A stretch of 64,000 nucleotides of DNA from Corynebacterium canis. GTDB lineage: Bacteria; Actinomycetota; Actinomycetes; Mycobacteriales; Mycobacteriaceae. Made by a program: the position numbers and the translations under genes. This document shows positions 303 through 59,128 of the stretch, piece by piece. The notes below the pieces were generated by a model, which was given only the letters and a program-made list of their open reading frames with translations, was not told where the DNA came from and did not search any database. Each line of letters starts with the position of its first letter. Position 1 is the first letter of the stretch. The stretch is from positions 2,749,353-2,813,352 of the forward strand of contig NZ_CP047080.1 in the NCBI RefSeq assembly GCF_030408595.1, given 5' to 3'.

Positions 303-664
303 TGAACGCCCTCAGCCTCTTCTTCCTACTCTGCGGCGCCGTCTTGGCACTTTCCGCCGCCATCGGATTGGTCCGCTTCCGCGACACCATGTCCCGACTC
401 CACGCCGTGACCAAACCCCAGACCCTGGGGCTGATCTGCACCATCACCGGAACCAACCTCCACGTGCTCAATTCCGACAAACTCGGACCCGGCGAACTTG
501 GCGACCTAGGCGTGCTCTTCCTGATCATATTGTTTGCCCTGCTCACAGCCCCTGTGGTCGCGCAACGCGTGGGCCGAATCGCCCGCAAAGAAGGCCTCTA
601 CGAAGAAGCCTTCCTGTCCCGCGATGACACCGAAGGCAAAAAAGCCGCCCGCAAACACGTCTAG
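299..664 (+). CDS. mrpG: Mrp-type Na+/H+ antiporter subunit G
   Basis: A 121-residue membrane protein with three helices and the MnhG/PhaG signature: RFRDTMSRLHAVTKPQTLG near residues 26-44 and a third helix after LGDLGVLFL. It is the last gene of the Mrp antiporter operon. Its ATG overlaps the mrpF stop by 4 bases; a second ATG at 302 is also possible. The C-terminal 25 residues are charged and rich in Lys and Arg, so probably cytoplasmic. Non-coding DNA follows, so the operon appears to end here. Confidence 0.9.
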   Translation: MMNALSLFFLLCGAVLALSAAIGLVRFRDTMSRLHAVTKPQTLGLICTITGTNLHVLNSDKLGPGELGDLGVLFLIILFALLTAPVVAQRVGRIARKEGLYEEAFLSRDDTEGKKAARKHV

Positions 665-846
665 GTTCTTTAGTGTTCCCTTCGTTGGGTGGGCCTATAT
701 GGCGCCGCGGCGAAGCTTTCCGGCCCGGATCCGCAGAAATCCGCCTTGGCCAGCAGCAGACCATGCGGCGGACGAGCAAAATCAGGCGCCAGCGAGACAA
801 ACCTAGCGCTAGCGCTGCAAAACTCGGCGCCATCGGAGCTATACGG

Positions 847-1280
847 ATAGGTAGCGCACTTCACATGAAGTTTTTTACACACGAAACGCCGATTTTGTGT
901 AATTTTCATCGCTCAGAGCCGCCCAGGGCCACCCCCGCGATATTTTTTACACAGATTCGGGATTTTGATGTAAAAAATATCGGTAGACAACGTTCAACTC
1001 CGGACCTGCCAATAGGTTGTGGACGGCCTACCGCATCAAAATGGCGCAATTAAGGGAAGTTGACCATAGTCGACCAAGGGTAGCGGATTTCACGGCCTCA
1101 GAGGGGCTGCTACGACGGAAATTCATTAGTGGCCAATCATTTATTGTTTCATACCCACTTTCCAGACAGGCATCGCACATCGACAGCGGGGACACTTCGG
1201 ATAGATCCAGCTGCATTGGGATGTGCCGCAGTAAAACTCCCCTCAACGTACCCCAATCAATCGGAAGACAGCCCATAGCA
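847..1280. repeat. R1 repeat, copy 1 (locus 1, full unit)
   Basis: First copy of a repeat found six times in the window. It starts at the motif GATAGGTAGCGCAC. It holds near-palindrome P1 at 865-909 (ATGAA...TTCAT ends, TTACACA/TGTGTAA inside) and P2 at 938-982 (perfect 14-base arms 938-951 and 969-982, 17-base loop). A less conserved tail of about 290 bases follows, including the GACCAAGGGTAGC segment at 1071-1083. The unit runs to the start of copy 2, 434 bases on. One T is missing from the P2 loop compared with copies 2 and 3. I see no protein-coding signal. Confidence 0.85.
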
Positions 1281-1433
1281 ATAGGTAGCGCACTTCACAT
1301 GAAGTTTTTTACACACGAAACGCCGATTTTGTGTAATTTTCATCGCTCTGGGCCGCCCAGGGCTGCCGCTGCGATATTTTTTACACAGATTTCGGGATTT
1401 TGATGTAAAAAATATCGGTAGACAACGTTCAAC
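1281..1433. repeat. R1 repeat, copy 2 (locus 1, tail missing)
   Basis: Second R1 copy, nearly identical to copy 1 through the palindrome module: P1 1299-1343, P2 1372-1417 with arms 1372-1385 and 1404-1417. Similarity stops soon after GTAGACAACGTTCAACT at about 1433, so the tail seen after copy 1 is absent or unrecognisable here. Confidence 0.85.
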
Positions 1434-2481
1434 TTGTTAAGTGACACACTACCGATTTCGCCGCATGAGCGTTTTTGGGGGCACTGGAGTACCCACGCAA
1501 TAACTAGAGGGCCTCAAATGGCCATTTTGAATCGTGCGCGATCCACTTGAGCGCGGCGGCGGTTGGAATCCATTCGCCCTTCGCTCCCTCACCGGTGCGA
1601 ACGTCTCAACACCGAGCGACTGGAACCAGTAACAGGGGAAACTTATTTGCATATATCCGACTCCGTAGGGGCATGCGCACCCGCTAGTGTTGAAGGCTGC
1701 TTCGCGCCGGCTAGGCTTGAAGGCTGCTGCGCACCCGCTAGGCTTAGAAGCTGTTGCGCGCCATCGTGCCGATAGGCCGGGAGGGCGAAAGGGTTGGCTC
1801 GGCAGCGTCACCAAGCAATAAGCCGCTAGTTAGCACGCAATCGAGTCGATTTGCTGGCTGGCGAAGGTGGGCAACCGCTGGGGGTGTGGCGGAAGCTAGG
1901 GCAACCACGAAATGAGTGCTTCGCGTTGAAGTATGCGGCAGCTACCGAATGCATATTCGCCCAAAATGGGAGCGTTTATTGCGCACGAAATGGGCAGCAG
2001 GCTGGGGAGCATAATGCAGGGAGTGGATTCGGCGAATTGGAAAATCAGTTTGACGGATTGGGTGATTGCAGCCAAAAGACAAGGCAATGGATTTGGCGAA
2101 ATCCGTCTCGGATGCGCGAAGCGCAAACGGCCTCCGGAGCCCCCTACGCCGGTGCCCCAATAATTGGATTATTTGTACGTAACGCTTTTGCTAACTAGGT
2201 CGATGATGTGAATAAGTAAGGCAAATGCGTCCCGTTACCTGCGCTAGCCTAGTTATTTATTAATGCTGGTAACCATGTCGCTTTTGCGCCCGCCCAGCAC
2301 TGACGGAGGTTCGAGCAGCTTAGGTTTTGGTTATGGTGTTGTCGCCGAGATGAGATCCACTGCGACTAGCGTCAGCGGGTGTTCGGATTCGGCAGGCGCG
2401 GAGCAAGAGCGCGCCCAGCAGGAGGCCACCTTGCCGGATGGCAGGGTGGCTTTAGTGTTCGCGCGAGCTATTTCGGTCGAG
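1434..2481. other. Long non-coding stretch with a short tandem repeat
   Basis: About 1 kb between R1 copy 2 and the stop of the YbdK-type ligase gene. Open frames here (for example 1851-2198 and 2263-2670) have no convincing ribosome site or recognisable protein, and the last runs into the antisense of the ligase gene. The only structure I can support is the 27-base tandem repeat at 1674-1766, listed separately. No tRNA or terminator was recognised. Confidence 0.6.
1674..1766. repeat. 27-bp tandem repeat, about 3.4 units
   Basis: Units at 1674-1700, 1701-1727 and 1728-1754, with a partial unit at 1755-1766. The consensus begins TGCGCACCCGCTAGGCTTGA and ends AGGCTGC. Units differ at several positions. 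The period is a multiple of three, so one plus frame reads as 9-residue repeats (like CCAPARLEG), but there is no support for a gene around it. Confidence 0.8.
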
Positions 2482-34398: not shown

Positions 34399-34844
34399 GA
34401 TGGGTTGTGTGCGGCACATGAAGTTTTTTACACACGAAACCCGGATTTTGTGTAATTTTCATCGCTCAGGGCCACCCAGGGCCACCGCCGCGATAGTTTT
34501 TACACAGATTTCGGGATTTTGATGTAAAAAATATCGGTAGACACCGTTCAACTCCGCAAAGGTGAATAGGTTGCGAGCGACCCACCATGTCAAATGGGGT
34601 CAGTTAACGCAATTCGTCCATGGTCGACCAAGGGTAGCGAATTTCGAGGCCTTAGCGGGGCTGCTACGGCGAAAATTCGATAGGGTCCAACCATATATCA
34701 TTTTGTAGCTACTTTCCGGGCATGTGCCAAACATCTACAGCGGGCACACTTCAGACACATCAAATCAACTTGGGGCACACCGCAGTAGACCGCCCGCCAA
34801 CGCGACACCAAACAGCACGTAGTCGACCTGGTAGCCGCGGTGGG
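34399..34844. repeat. R1 repeat, copy 3 (locus 2, full unit)
   Basis: Starts at GATGGGTTGTGTGC. P1 at 34418-34462, P2 at 34491-34536 (arms 34491-34504 and 34523-34536, one mismatch). A tail follows with GACCAAGGGTAGCGAATTTC at about 34627-34646. The next copy starts 446 bases later. Tail similarity to copy 1 continues through the CTACAGCGGGCACACTTC segment, so the whole unit is about 440 bases. Confidence 0.85.
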
Positions 34845-35033
34845 GATGGGTTGTGTGCAGCACATGAAGTTTTTTACACACGAAACCCGGATTTTGTGTA
34901 ATTTTCATCATCCTGGGCCGCCTGGGGCCGCCGGCGCGATATGTTTTACACAGATTCGTACCTTGCCATTGAAGATGTGAACTTTCGGAAGCTTCCCCGT
35001 GATGGTCATGGGGATGAGGAAGGAAGGTTCAAG

Positions 35034-35534
35034 ATGTCTGTACAGATCCCTCCGGTAGATCCGGACCGGACGTTTACTGCGGAGCAGCGCCGGGAGATCG
35101 TGTTGGCCCATGCGGAGACCAAGCATGGTCTGAAGGGAGAGTTCCTCCGGGCGGCCGGGGTGACGCCGCGGCAGTTGTATTTGTGGCGGCGGCAGCTTGC
35201 GGCGGGCACGCTCGACATCGGGTTAACACCGCGAGAAAATATTCCTATGAGTGATGAAAATATCGTGGAGTTTTCTCGGCTGACACAGCGCAATCAGGAG
35301 TTGGAGGCGCTTAACGCCGAGCTGGGGGCGGAGCGTGCGAAGCTGGAGACCGAGCGCGCGAAGTGGGAGACTGCGCGCGCGAAGTGGGAAACACGTCACG
35401 CCAAATTGGAGGCGCGGATCGCTGAATTGGAAAAGGTGGTTGCGGATAAGGATGCTGCCACCACTGCGCATGCCAAGGCGGTGGAGGCGATGGGAAAAGC
35501 TATCGCCGCCATGCAAAAATATACCGATCGTTGA
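35034..35534 (+). CDS. IS3-type transposase OrfA with coiled coil
   Basis: 166 residues. Helix-turn-helix at about 14-55 (TAEQRREIVLAHAETKHGLKG...GVTPRQLYLWRRQL) that should bind the IS ends. From about residue 78 there is a long coiled coil with near-identical heptads (AKLETER, AKWETAR, AKWETRH, AKLEARI). AGGAAGG at 35020-35026 precedes the ATG. Its stop TGA overlaps the orfB start (TGATG). CAAAAATA just before the stop might allow a -1 frameshift, but coupling by re-initiation is also possible. Confidence 0.85.
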   Translation: MSVQIPPVDPDRTFTAEQRREIVLAHAETKHGLKGEFLRAAGVTPRQLYLWRRQLAAGTLDIGLTPRENIPMSDENIVEFSRLTQRNQELEALNAELGAERAKLETERAKWETARAKWETRHAKLEARIAELEKVVADKDAATTAHAKAVEAMGKAIAAMQKYTDR

Positions 35535-36622
35535 TGCGTGGTGGCCGGAAACTTTCCCCAGAGCAGCAAGCCGATTTCGATGAGTTCGTTAAGCTTGAAG
35601 ACCATATTTTAGAGTTGCTTGCGGCGGCTGGCTATACCCAAAACGCGGCATTGAAGCTGCTTGGGCTTGCGAAAACAACCCTGTATTACCGGCGGCATCC
35701 GCGGCCGAAGAAACCACCACAACACCCAAAGGCCGCGCCGCCGAAAACGATTAGCGCCCCGGAGCGTCAACGTATCGCCGCATTGCTTCGCGACGGTCGT
35801 GAGCAGGGATTATCGGTCTATAAAATCTTTTTCAGCCATGTCGATTCCGAGGAGCCCTTGCTCGGCTCATTGCGGACGTTTTACCGCGTGAACAATGAAA
35901 TCAAAACGGTGCCAGCACCGCTGCGCCACGGCGCGCCACGGGCGCCGCAACCACCACGAATAGTGACCGCGACACGGCCCGGCGAAGTCCTGTGCTGGGA
36001 TATCACCTGGCTCCCCGGATCCTTTATGACCAAGGGATTTCACCTCTACACCGTGCTGGACTTGCACTCCCGTAAAATCGTCGGCCACACCGTACAACTG
36101 CGCCAAGACAAACACATCGCCACCGACCTCATCGCCCAAGTCATCGCCGCCGAGCAGCTCAACCACGCCAAGGTCCGAGTCCTGCACACCGACAACGGTG
36201 CTGTCATGACCTCCACCCAAATGCGCCAAATGCTCGACGCCAACGGCGTAGAACTCTCACTCATCCGCCCCGGAGTATCCAACGACAACCCTTTCGAAGA
36301 ATCCTCCCACCGCACACTCAAACACCACCGCTACGCCTTAACCAGCTACCCCAATATCAAGGCCGCCGCCAACACCATGGCCTCCATCATCGACGCCTAC
36401 AACAACCACGACCCACACAGCGGCCTCGCCGGATTCACCCCACAACAGGTCTACACCGGCGAATGGAAACCACTACTCAAACACCGCAAAGCAAAGGAAG
36501 AAATCTACTACAACACCTACCCCCAACGACGCCCACCACGATCCATGTTCCAACCACCACCAGCCACCGTCGGCATCAAAATCGGAACACCACCACCAAC
36601 CCCACAAAACCAAGTACAATAA
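35534..36622 (+). CDS. IS3-type transposase OrfB, DDE catalytic subunit
   Basis: 362 residues. N-terminal helix-turn-helix (GYTQNAALKLLGLAKTTLYYR), then the retroviral-integrase-like core with Asp156 (CWDITWL), Asp220 (HTDNG) and Glu256 (EESSHRTLK). The 35-residue spacing of the last two is the DD(35)E pattern. No frameshift or stop is seen, so it may be active. Codon use and C-rich composition in its second half differ from neighbouring housekeeping genes. TTG at 35531 is an alternative start. Confidence 0.92.
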   Translation: MRGGRKLSPEQQADFDEFVKLEDHILELLAAAGYTQNAALKLLGLAKTTLYYRRHPRPKKPPQHPKAAPPKTISAPERQRIAALLRDGREQGLSVYKIFFSHVDSEEPLLGSLRTFYRVNNEIKTVPAPLRHGAPRAPQPPRIVTATRPGEVLCWDITWLPGSFMTKGFHLYTVLDLHSRKIVGHTVQLRQDKHIATDLIAQVIAAEQLNHAKVRVLHTDNGAVMTSTQMRQMLDANGVELSLIRPGVSNDNPFEESSHRTLKHHRYALTSYPNIKAAANTMASIIDAYNNHDPHSGLAGFTPQQVYTGEWKPLLKHRKAKEEIYYNTYPQRRPPRSMFQPPPATVGIKIGTPPPTPQNQVQ

Positions 36623-36830
36623 AACCAAGAACAATCAAAGAAGTTCACAACTCAATGGCACGCGGCGATTTCTGGATTTTGGTGTAAAAAATATCGGTAG
36701 ACACCGTTCAACTCCGCAAAGGCGAATAGGTTGCGAGCGACCCACTGTGTCAAATGGGGCCAATTAACGCAATTCGTCCATAGTTGACCAAGGGTAGCGA
36801 ATTTCGAGGCCTTAGCGGGGCTGCTATGGC

Positions 36831-58138: not shown

Positions 58139-58603
58139 TAGGTCGCGCACTTCATATGACGTTTTTTACACACGAATCCCGGTTTCTGTGTAATTTTCAT
58201 CGCCGGGGGCCGCCGCAGGCCTCCGTTGCGATATTTTTTACACAGATTTCGGAATTTTGATGTAAAAAATATCAGTAGACACCGTTCAACTCCGGACCTG
58301 AGGATAGGTCGACCACAACCGGATACATTAAAATGACGCGATTAGCGCAATTCGGCCATAGTCAACCATGGGCAACCAACTTCAAGCGCTGAGAAGGGCT
58401 CCTATGGCACTGCGTCAATAAAGTATTACATCGGAAACATATTGGGCTTGACCGGACCTTCCGAGGTTTAAAGTGTTGCGGAAAACCAATCGTTGGAGGC
58501 GGCGAGACAGTCGCCGAGCAAGCCAGCTTCGCCATCAATTGCGGTCCTAGCCATAAGCTCCGGAGCCTAACGGTGCAGCGAGAGCTCCAACTCCCCCATT
58601 TGG
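58139..58603. repeat. R1 repeat, copy 5 (locus 3, full unit)
   Basis: Starts near TAGGTCGCGCACTTC. P1 at 58156-58200, P2 at 58229-58273 (left arm 58229-58242, right arm 58261-58273). The tail keeps ATAGTCAACCATGGGCAACC at 58358-58377, a diverged form of the GACCAAGGGTAGC segment. The next copy starts about 467 bases on. More diverged than loci 1 and 2. Confidence 0.8.
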
Positions 58604-58780
58604 GATAGGTCGCGCACTCCACATGAAGTTTTTTTACACACGAATCCCGGATTCTGTGTAATTTTCATCATCGAGAGCCGCCACAGGCCTCCGACGCGAT
58701 ATTTTTTACACAGATTTCGAGATTTTGATGTAAAAAATATCAGTAGACACCGTTCATCTCAGCGCTTGGGGATAGGTTGC
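58604..58780. repeat. R1 repeat, copy 6 (locus 3, tail missing)
   Basis: Starts at GGATAGGTCGCGCAC. P1 58623-58668 with one extra T in the T-run, P2 58697-58741. Ends near GGGATAGGTTGCAAGC at 58768-58783. As in locus 1, the second copy lacks a recognisable tail. Confidence 0.8.
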
Positions 58781-59128
58781 AAGCAACTGAAGGGCTCATA
58801 TGAGGCCTTTTATGAGAATTCCGGGATACTTTAATAGGAACGCCAATTTCGATCCCGCAAAACAGGATCTATCGATCTTGTCCAATTTGATTGACCGTAA
58901 CCTAATTGTCCGGGAATTGCTCCACACGGAAGGTTCCCAGTTCTAAAGCTTCCTTTTCGGTAACCGCCCCATCGGGAAGTGGCCGTTTTGGCGGGGACAT
59001 CCATCCGCGCGTTACCCAACCCGCGCGTTACCCAACCCGCACATGCTACGCGCGCTCCAACCTCACCGCCCCCAGAAACACGAAATCCGCGGCACCATCA
59101 GGGATGGGTCGCGGATCGTGTACGTGTT
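58781..59128. other. Intergenic DNA downstream of hspR
   Basis: About 350 bases between R1 copy 6 and the hspR stop. The short direct repeat CGCGTTACCCAACC occurs twice at about 59008-59037. No gene or clear terminator. Confidence 0.45.

Follow-up and report, generated by a model that had tools for sequence, protein, structure and literature searches.

R1, an intergenic palindromic repeat of Corynebacterium canis whose paired copies are spaced in helical register

Repetitive extragenic palindromes (REPs) are given as 20–40 bp long (PMC3733652), and REPINs are characterized by Bertels and Rainey (2011; PMC3116915) as REP doublets that form hairpins. The repeat considered here, R1, was noticed in a window of 64,000 nucleotides (the whole stretch of DNA analyzed) from Corynebacterium canis, positions 2749353–2813352 of a one-contig genome of 3,045,310 b (G000:C1). 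R1 is similar to REPINs in being intergenic and high-copy, in carrying two inverted palindromes, P1 and P2, that were found able to form one hairpin, and in having doublets that are better kept than singlets. It differs from REPs, however, in its palindromes of ~45 b each and its unit of ~300 b, and from REPINs in that its genome is without a REP-associated tyrosine transposase (RAYT) and in that whole units stand in direct, helically phased pairs. REPs carry a GTAG or CGTC tag at the foot of the stem, whereas GGTAG in most R1 copies sits 3′ of P2 and not 5′ of the stem. The best reading of R1 is as a DNA element resembling REPINs or bacterial interspersed mosaic elements (BIMEs), likely kept as paired protein-binding sites that are bridged in helical register.

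Other described systems share single features with R1. The bcr1 element of the Bacillus cereus group is also a structured intergenic repeat (~150 b) limited to one lineage; we know of no strict pairing or helical phasing in bcr1. The matS, SlmA and Noc sites are dispersed in large numbers and may be biased along the chromosome, but these architecture sites are short single palindromes, while R1 is a long paired element with a weak chromosomal bias. Spacing in helical register, expected of paired sites that form loops, was found for R1 pairs. Lac-type operator pairs loop in helical register, and the joint effect of two palindromic sites depends on their spacing (PMC1762422); R1 differs from these in occurring at dozens of loci, mostly at gene 3′ ends, with spacings of 330–900 b. 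Among the open-licence papers searched, no account of paired, helically phased repeats was found.

We give an even chance to the proposal that P1 and P2, separated by 73 b, make each R1 copy a double protein-binding site, with the two copies of a pair bridged by proteins across a DNA loop. A putative host protein would bind the P1 and P2 dyads of each copy in one register, and the bound proteins would bridge the two copies, forming the loop; the whole-turn spacing of pairs is proposed to exist because bridging across a loop would demand it. Locally, such loops may separate convergent transcription units or absorb supercoils between them, and chromosome-wide they may contribute to nucleoid architecture. 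The invariant symmetric arms, the variable P1 loop, the P1–P2 distance of about seven turns, the limit of two copies and the phased pairs fit a bridged, protein-bound DNA element. The first-pass annotation of the window had left three options, and the first, a DNA–protein site array, is the best supported, through sequence-fixed arms, whole-helical-turn spacing and weak covariation; little speaks for the second, a structured RNA, or for the third in the form of an element that is currently moving.

Pair spacings range from 327 to 896 b (31–86 turns) and form a ladder with steps of 10.2–10.45 b. An initial test with a preset period of 10.5 gave R = 0.48 (n = 30 pairs). The 35 P2–P2 spacings with exact anchors include 417, 427, 435, 448, 457–458, 467–468, 477–480, 486–491, 499–500, 507–510, 521, 541, 571, 582, 592–595 and 601–610; their best period among 4–25 b was 10.45 (z = 11.3), a score equaled in no case among 20,000 control sets, in which spacings were moved by up to 5 b. 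Phasing was likewise found with the 32 distinct spacings (P = 0.0002 at a period of 10.20) and with P1–P1 spacings (32 pairs, P = 0.00005). Ten pairs have long homologous spacers. The phasing persists in the 25 pairs without these (P = 0.00015), in the 19 whose spacers have no match at all (P = 0.0004) and after removal of six homologous-spacer pairs (P = 0.00005), and shared spacer ancestry is therefore not the explanation. It was also seen with A–A pairs removed (P = 0.002) and in both halves of the loci (P = 0.011 and 0.028), while the distances from R1 to neighboring genes, used as a control, were unphased (P = 0.78 and 0.69; together 0.89). Spacings set in steps of the helical turn, recurring at many loci whose spacers are unrelated, point to a mechanism that works at the level of DNA and through two sites.

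The R1 unit consists of a lead beginning ATAGGT, a 138-b core (in order, P1, a G+C-rich middle, P2 and the block GGTAGACANCGTTCAAC) and a tail of ~130 b. Its left boundary is sharp, and outside the unit, the partner spacers and copies of an insertion sequence (IS), almost no sequence is common to the loci. P1 and P2 are 73 b apart in 75 of 84 copies (74 in seven, 72 in two), and 73 corresponds to 7 turns of 10.4. Mean identity across the 299 unit columns is 69%; averaged over all copy pairs, it is 88% for the core and 50% for the tail, and the highest whole-unit identity between two loci is 87% among 77 full copies. In an alignment (A1) of 76 of these cores, from which copy 461326 with its inverted middle and the IS-split and partial copies were excluded, 49 cells deviate in the 58 palindrome-arm columns (with two P2 columns accounting for 26) vs. 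641 in 60 loop and middle columns, and 63 of the 138 columns show no variation, whereas 0.5 such columns would be expected at a uniform rate. Per column and 100 copies there are 16.8 deviations in the P1 loop, 3.9 in the P2 loop and 0.1–2.4 in the arms, which bears out the earlier remark that arms are better kept than loops and tails, with the limit that the P2 loop is fairly conserved too. Singletons number 14 in 72 arm and 3′-block columns vs. 35 in 66 others (binomial P = 0.0009). Since the tails indicate that units at different loci are old, the invariance of the arms is read as selection on each copy and not as recent spread, and conversion between loci fails to explain it because the loci differ from one another in P1 loop and middle. 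The constraint on the arms thus seems to act in place rather than through fresh copying. One divergent copy, a single subfamily member whose palindromes are differently spelled, lies between convergent genes at 1429749–1429959 (L180:5750–5960; the copy at 1429792); its P2 is spelled otherwise (TTACATCAAAA/TTTTGATGTAA) yet is a near-perfect palindrome, so symmetry itself seems to matter.

Palindromy kept in a divergent copy would also be expected of a multi-copy structured RNA, in which the 300-b unit is transcribed and the P1, P2 and tail hairpins act in RNA, but we consider this quite unlikely. One unit does fold better than its own shuffles (RNA z = −2.95), P1 has a few compensatory pairs (A-U to C-G, columns 24–42), column pair 9–50 varies solely between G-U and A-U, and 2 of 500 shuffles attained the covariation score, although this control can be misled by relatedness. 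A covariation test had been recommended when R1 was first noticed and, run on the 76 cores, it gave a weak signal: pairs changed on both sides number 4 vs. 3.4 in shuffles, P2 has 19 and 7 uncompensated cells at columns 93 and 92, and a mutual-information scan of the 300-b unit detected no stacked covarying helix in the tails. Rfam covariance models at their gathering scores had no match in the window, and positions 660–2480 contain no terminator-like site and one promoter-like site, compared with 1.3 in shuffles. A structured RNA also gives no reason for the helical phasing of DNA spacing.

R1 extends well beyond the window. A 39-base P1 pattern, with at most three mismatches, matched the genome 71 times vs. 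0 in a reversed control, and the pattern TTACAC-N8-24-GTGTAA 95 times against 4, counts so far above the controls that chance is excluded as the source of R1. An nhmmer profile run on 48 genome stretches and the window yielded 88 non-overlapping matches, 77 of full core length, in 49 clusters. A covariance model applied to the whole genome yielded 98; as this search scored 150 of 1466 candidates, it may have passed over weak copies. Subtracting four opposite-strand repeats of the same place and joining one IS-split copy leaves 93, and the divergent copy at 1429792 brings the count to ~94. These occupy 57 loci, 38 with two copies (one partner, at 1216062, being a fragment only), 19 with one and none with three. 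Searches with blastn across 242 genus genomes, and with the covariance model under stricter filters across 401 family genomes, found R1 in its own genome only (absent from 241 and 400 others, respectively). A distant blastn search of phages and plasmids gave no match and two R1 patterns were not found in viral contigs, although the record of this genome was perhaps excluded from these searches. The three matches of a pattern search in genome contigs, from which the own record was perhaps also excluded, were in unrelated phyla and were taken as chance. The best reading makes R1 a family of non-coding DNA elements that lie between genes, an old family and specific to its species. Absence from the rest of the genome and genus had been named beforehand as the mark of a mere local duplication; R1 is indeed absent from the genus as searched, yet it is abundant in its own genome.

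All six copies reported earlier for the window are present, with P1 and P2 arms laid out as described, but the six copies at three loci are only a sample of the genome-wide set. The window pairs have spacings of 434–435, 446 and 466–468 b. The copy at 34845 is also real, with one correction: its P2 is split by an IS and resumes at 36668. No tRNA was found in the window, which holds the following features:

847–1135, plus strand: first R1 unit of pair 1; lead (ATAGGT...), P1/P2 core 862–998, type A tail to about 1135
1281–1433, plus strand: second R1 unit of pair 1; core 1296–1433, then a different tail; P2–P2 spacing 435
34399–34700, plus strand: first R1 unit of pair 2; core 34415–34552, type A tail
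34845–34956, plus strand: left part of the second R1 unit of pair 2, broken in the P2 loop; core 34862–34957, with P1 and only the left part of P2
34957–36667, plus strand: IS3-family insertion sequence of 1,711 b; two open reading frames, one ending at 35534 (HTH_Tnp_1) and one spanning 35531–36622 (rve)
34954–34956 and 36668–36670: target duplication ATT of the insertion sequence in the R1 P2
36668–36845, plus strand: remainder of the split R1 unit on the right, with the right arm of P2, the 3′ block and a type A tail
58139–58420, plus strand: first R1 unit of pair 3; core 58153–58290
58604–58890, plus strand: second R1 unit of pair 3; core 58620–58758; P2–P2 spacing 468

Pair members lie in direct orientation, and partner cores (with the lead) are 0.916 alike vs. 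0.866 for random pairs, for which the maximum of 1000 draws was 0.883. In several pairs the cores are 0.96–0.99 identical while the tails are unrelated and the end points variable, which is read as gene conversion inside pairs. The direct orientation and alike cores, along with a setting between convergent genes, might suggest that neutral DNA was duplicated locally in tandem, or that the units are terminators serving both of the convergent genes, but this is highly improbable and is already contradicted by the invariant arms and the helical phasing. The family is genome-wide and never shows three copies at a locus, and intrinsic terminators (a G+C-containing hairpin followed by a T run) number 0 in window positions 660–2480 vs. 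2.4 in shuffles. The two longest spacings, 721 and 896 b (pairs at 795994 and 2519475), share a 330-b stretch of 87% identity that is absent from other spacers.

Several observations weigh against bridged protein-binding sites. Singletons are only ~2.7 times rarer per column in the arms, in a column set that includes the 3′ block picked after alignment; the partner is the joint best core match for just 27 of 60 paired copies; and 19 loci carry a single copy. The phasing was spotted during the analysis, though its first test had the preset period of 10.5, and the six homologous-spacer pairs on their own are unphased (P = 0.21). The best period wanders between 10.2 and 10.5, and the absolute face cannot be stated because, with ~47 turns between copies, a change of 0.1 b in period moves the face nearly half a turn. 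In the textbook lac case, DNA loops of 400–600 b are only weakly phase-dependent, and phase-locked insertion of a second copy, without later selection, could also yield the ladder. Protein binding, bridging, looping and purpose are all inferred here.

The IS that interrupts the second window pair belongs to a 1.7-kb element assigned as IS3-like by its orfA (PF01527, helix-turn-helix), its orfB (PF00665, rve) and its 3-base target duplication; the best match of orfB was NF033516 at 139.8 bits, below the cut-off of 160 for that model. Seven of its 11 full copies are within P1 or P2 of R1, at 353, 494, 962, 1020, 1074, 2368 and 2784 kb; in six of these the duplication, as read from the flanks, is ATT on one strand, and in the seventh it is GAT. 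Another copy, at 461 kb, abuts an R1, and copies away from R1 lie at 448 kb (1.3 kb from a pair), 1762 kb and 2010 kb. With R1 cores making up 0.43% of the genome, this preference has P = 8e-15; were only a tenth of the genome open to insertion, P would be 7e-8. It fits exposed or extruded palindromes, and R1 appears to serve one IS3-family transposon as a natural landing pad. Preferential insertion of ISs into REP palindromes is on record in Tobes and Pareja (2006; PMC1525189), and the resident IS behaves in a similar way toward R1, which is, however, an unrelated repeat. In the 241 other genus genomes, with two candidates scored per genome, the longest matches to this IS are 395–475 b at 65–67%. 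R1 was rejected as a miniature inverted-repeat transposable element (MITE) of the resident IS, whose ends are unrelated to R1.

With genes called by a simple codon-based caller made for this analysis, all R1 loci are intergenic, and the only genes within R1 spans are those of the inserted IS copies. Convergent genes flank 36 of the 57 loci, co-directional genes 19 and divergent genes two. Among background junctions, drawn from 20 evenly placed stretches and origin-proximal ones that were not chosen for R1 (five R1-bearing junctions remain), 136 of 721 are convergent, or 63 of 406 where the gap is at least 50 b, and the convergent excess of R1 has P = 4e-12 and 2e-13, respectively. Taken to its full extent, the proposal would be of a chromosome-wide, lineage-specific DNA-architecture system, with dozens of selected, helically registered pairs (31–86 turns), in each of which a dedicated protein would draw the two copies into a small loop where convergent genes meet; we put this forward tentatively, as somewhat less probable than not. 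If true, it would be the first case of dispersed bacterial repeats serving as paired loop anchors, and the host role of dispersed bacterial palindromic repeats is an old open question.

A dnaA-like gene lies at base 1, and the skew switches near 1.55 Mb. R1 loci are evenly spread except near the origin: within 200 kb of it there are two, fewer than the 7.5 expected (P = 0.015), and an arc of 533 kb around it (2866000–3045310 and 1–353000), the widest made of two gaps, contains a single locus (simulated P = 0.012). Convergent junctions are just as common near the origin (77 in 514 kb vs. 59 in 398 kb). No replication-strand bias was found, with 25 of 57 loci co-oriented (P = 0.43). The degenerate DnaA box consensus is TTWTNCACA. 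The left arms of P1 and P2 hold TTTTACACA, which we take to fit this relaxed box; it occurs twice per core, in the same direction and mostly away from the origin. Together with the thinning near the origin and a cluster of related boxes in the dnaA–dnaN region (TTTTCCACA, TTATACACA, TTATCCACA and others), this could suggest DnaA-titration or replication-control sites, which we judge very unlikely. In the 27 kb around the origin no TTTTACACA as such was found, conservation reaches far past the 9-mer, whose last base varies in P1 (9 of 76), and the depletion has a P of just 0.01–0.02.

That R1 units spread at some time, presumably long ago and by means of an enzyme, is shown by their presence at 57 dispersed loci and by a syntenic site that is free of R1 in relatives. 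The genes flanking the second window pair have counterparts in relative G040 (69 and 92% identical proteins) that are 263 b apart, vs. about 1.3 kb at the R1 site without the IS; the gap is 284 b in G099, 502 b in G154, ~2.0 kb in G141 and ~3.1 kb in G126, and the syntenic stretch of G016 is without the left gene. No R1 match was found in the syntenic stretches of these six relatives. R1 may accordingly be a relic of a REPIN-like or MITE-like non-autonomous element, copied by a transposase in trans and surviving harmlessly between convergent genes with no present host role. As to where the family came from, this is the chief rival, and it may be compatible with a later host role; as a full account it is rather unlikely. 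The sharp left boundary of dispersed copies, the R1-free site in G040, a core that matches its own reverse complement, the folding of one copy as a long hairpin (DNA z = −3.9) and the low number of divergent-gene loci (2 of 57 vs. 112 of 721 background junctions) are as expected of such a relic, as are six pairs with common homologous spacers, as if the pair had moved as a unit. RAYT-driven REPINs were ruled out, however, since Y1_Tnp/RAYT (PF01797) is unmatched in the genome while 5 of 14 control genomes were positive, and terminal inverted repeats or target duplications went unnoticed in the unit alignments, though no dedicated search was made for them. Even the closest copies (87%) are not recent, so unconstrained arms should have decayed as the tails did, and neutral relics leave the helical phasing unexplained. 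The third option of the first-pass annotation, a mobile unit, therefore stands for past spread, while current movement is unlikely because there are no near-identical units across loci, no terminal repeats seen and no Y1/REP transposase.

The tails of 77 copies are of type A in 32, type B in 18 and other types in 27. A third palindrome, CGTCACNGTGACG, belongs to the type B tails, where its distance from the P2 center is 91.5 b in 21 of 22 copies; it is also found beyond R1, with four occurrences in 912 kb of other stretches, one of them (at 3025274) 159 kb from any R1. The central base of this palindrome, CGTCAC(A/T)GTGACG, tracks the chromosome strand and not the orientation of the element, being T in 10 of 10 minus-strand copies and A in 10 of 12 plus-strand copies; this link was found post hoc (per-locus Fisher P = 0.002). 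In the core at 461326–461460 (L065), which an IS3-like copy abuts, the middle segment has the opposite orientation relative to P1 and P2, as though recombination had taken place at the palindromes. Shortened forms of R1 include an apparent fusion of the left part of P1 with P2 at 950215–950309 and P2-only pieces at 2067171–2067294 and 1216062–1216100.
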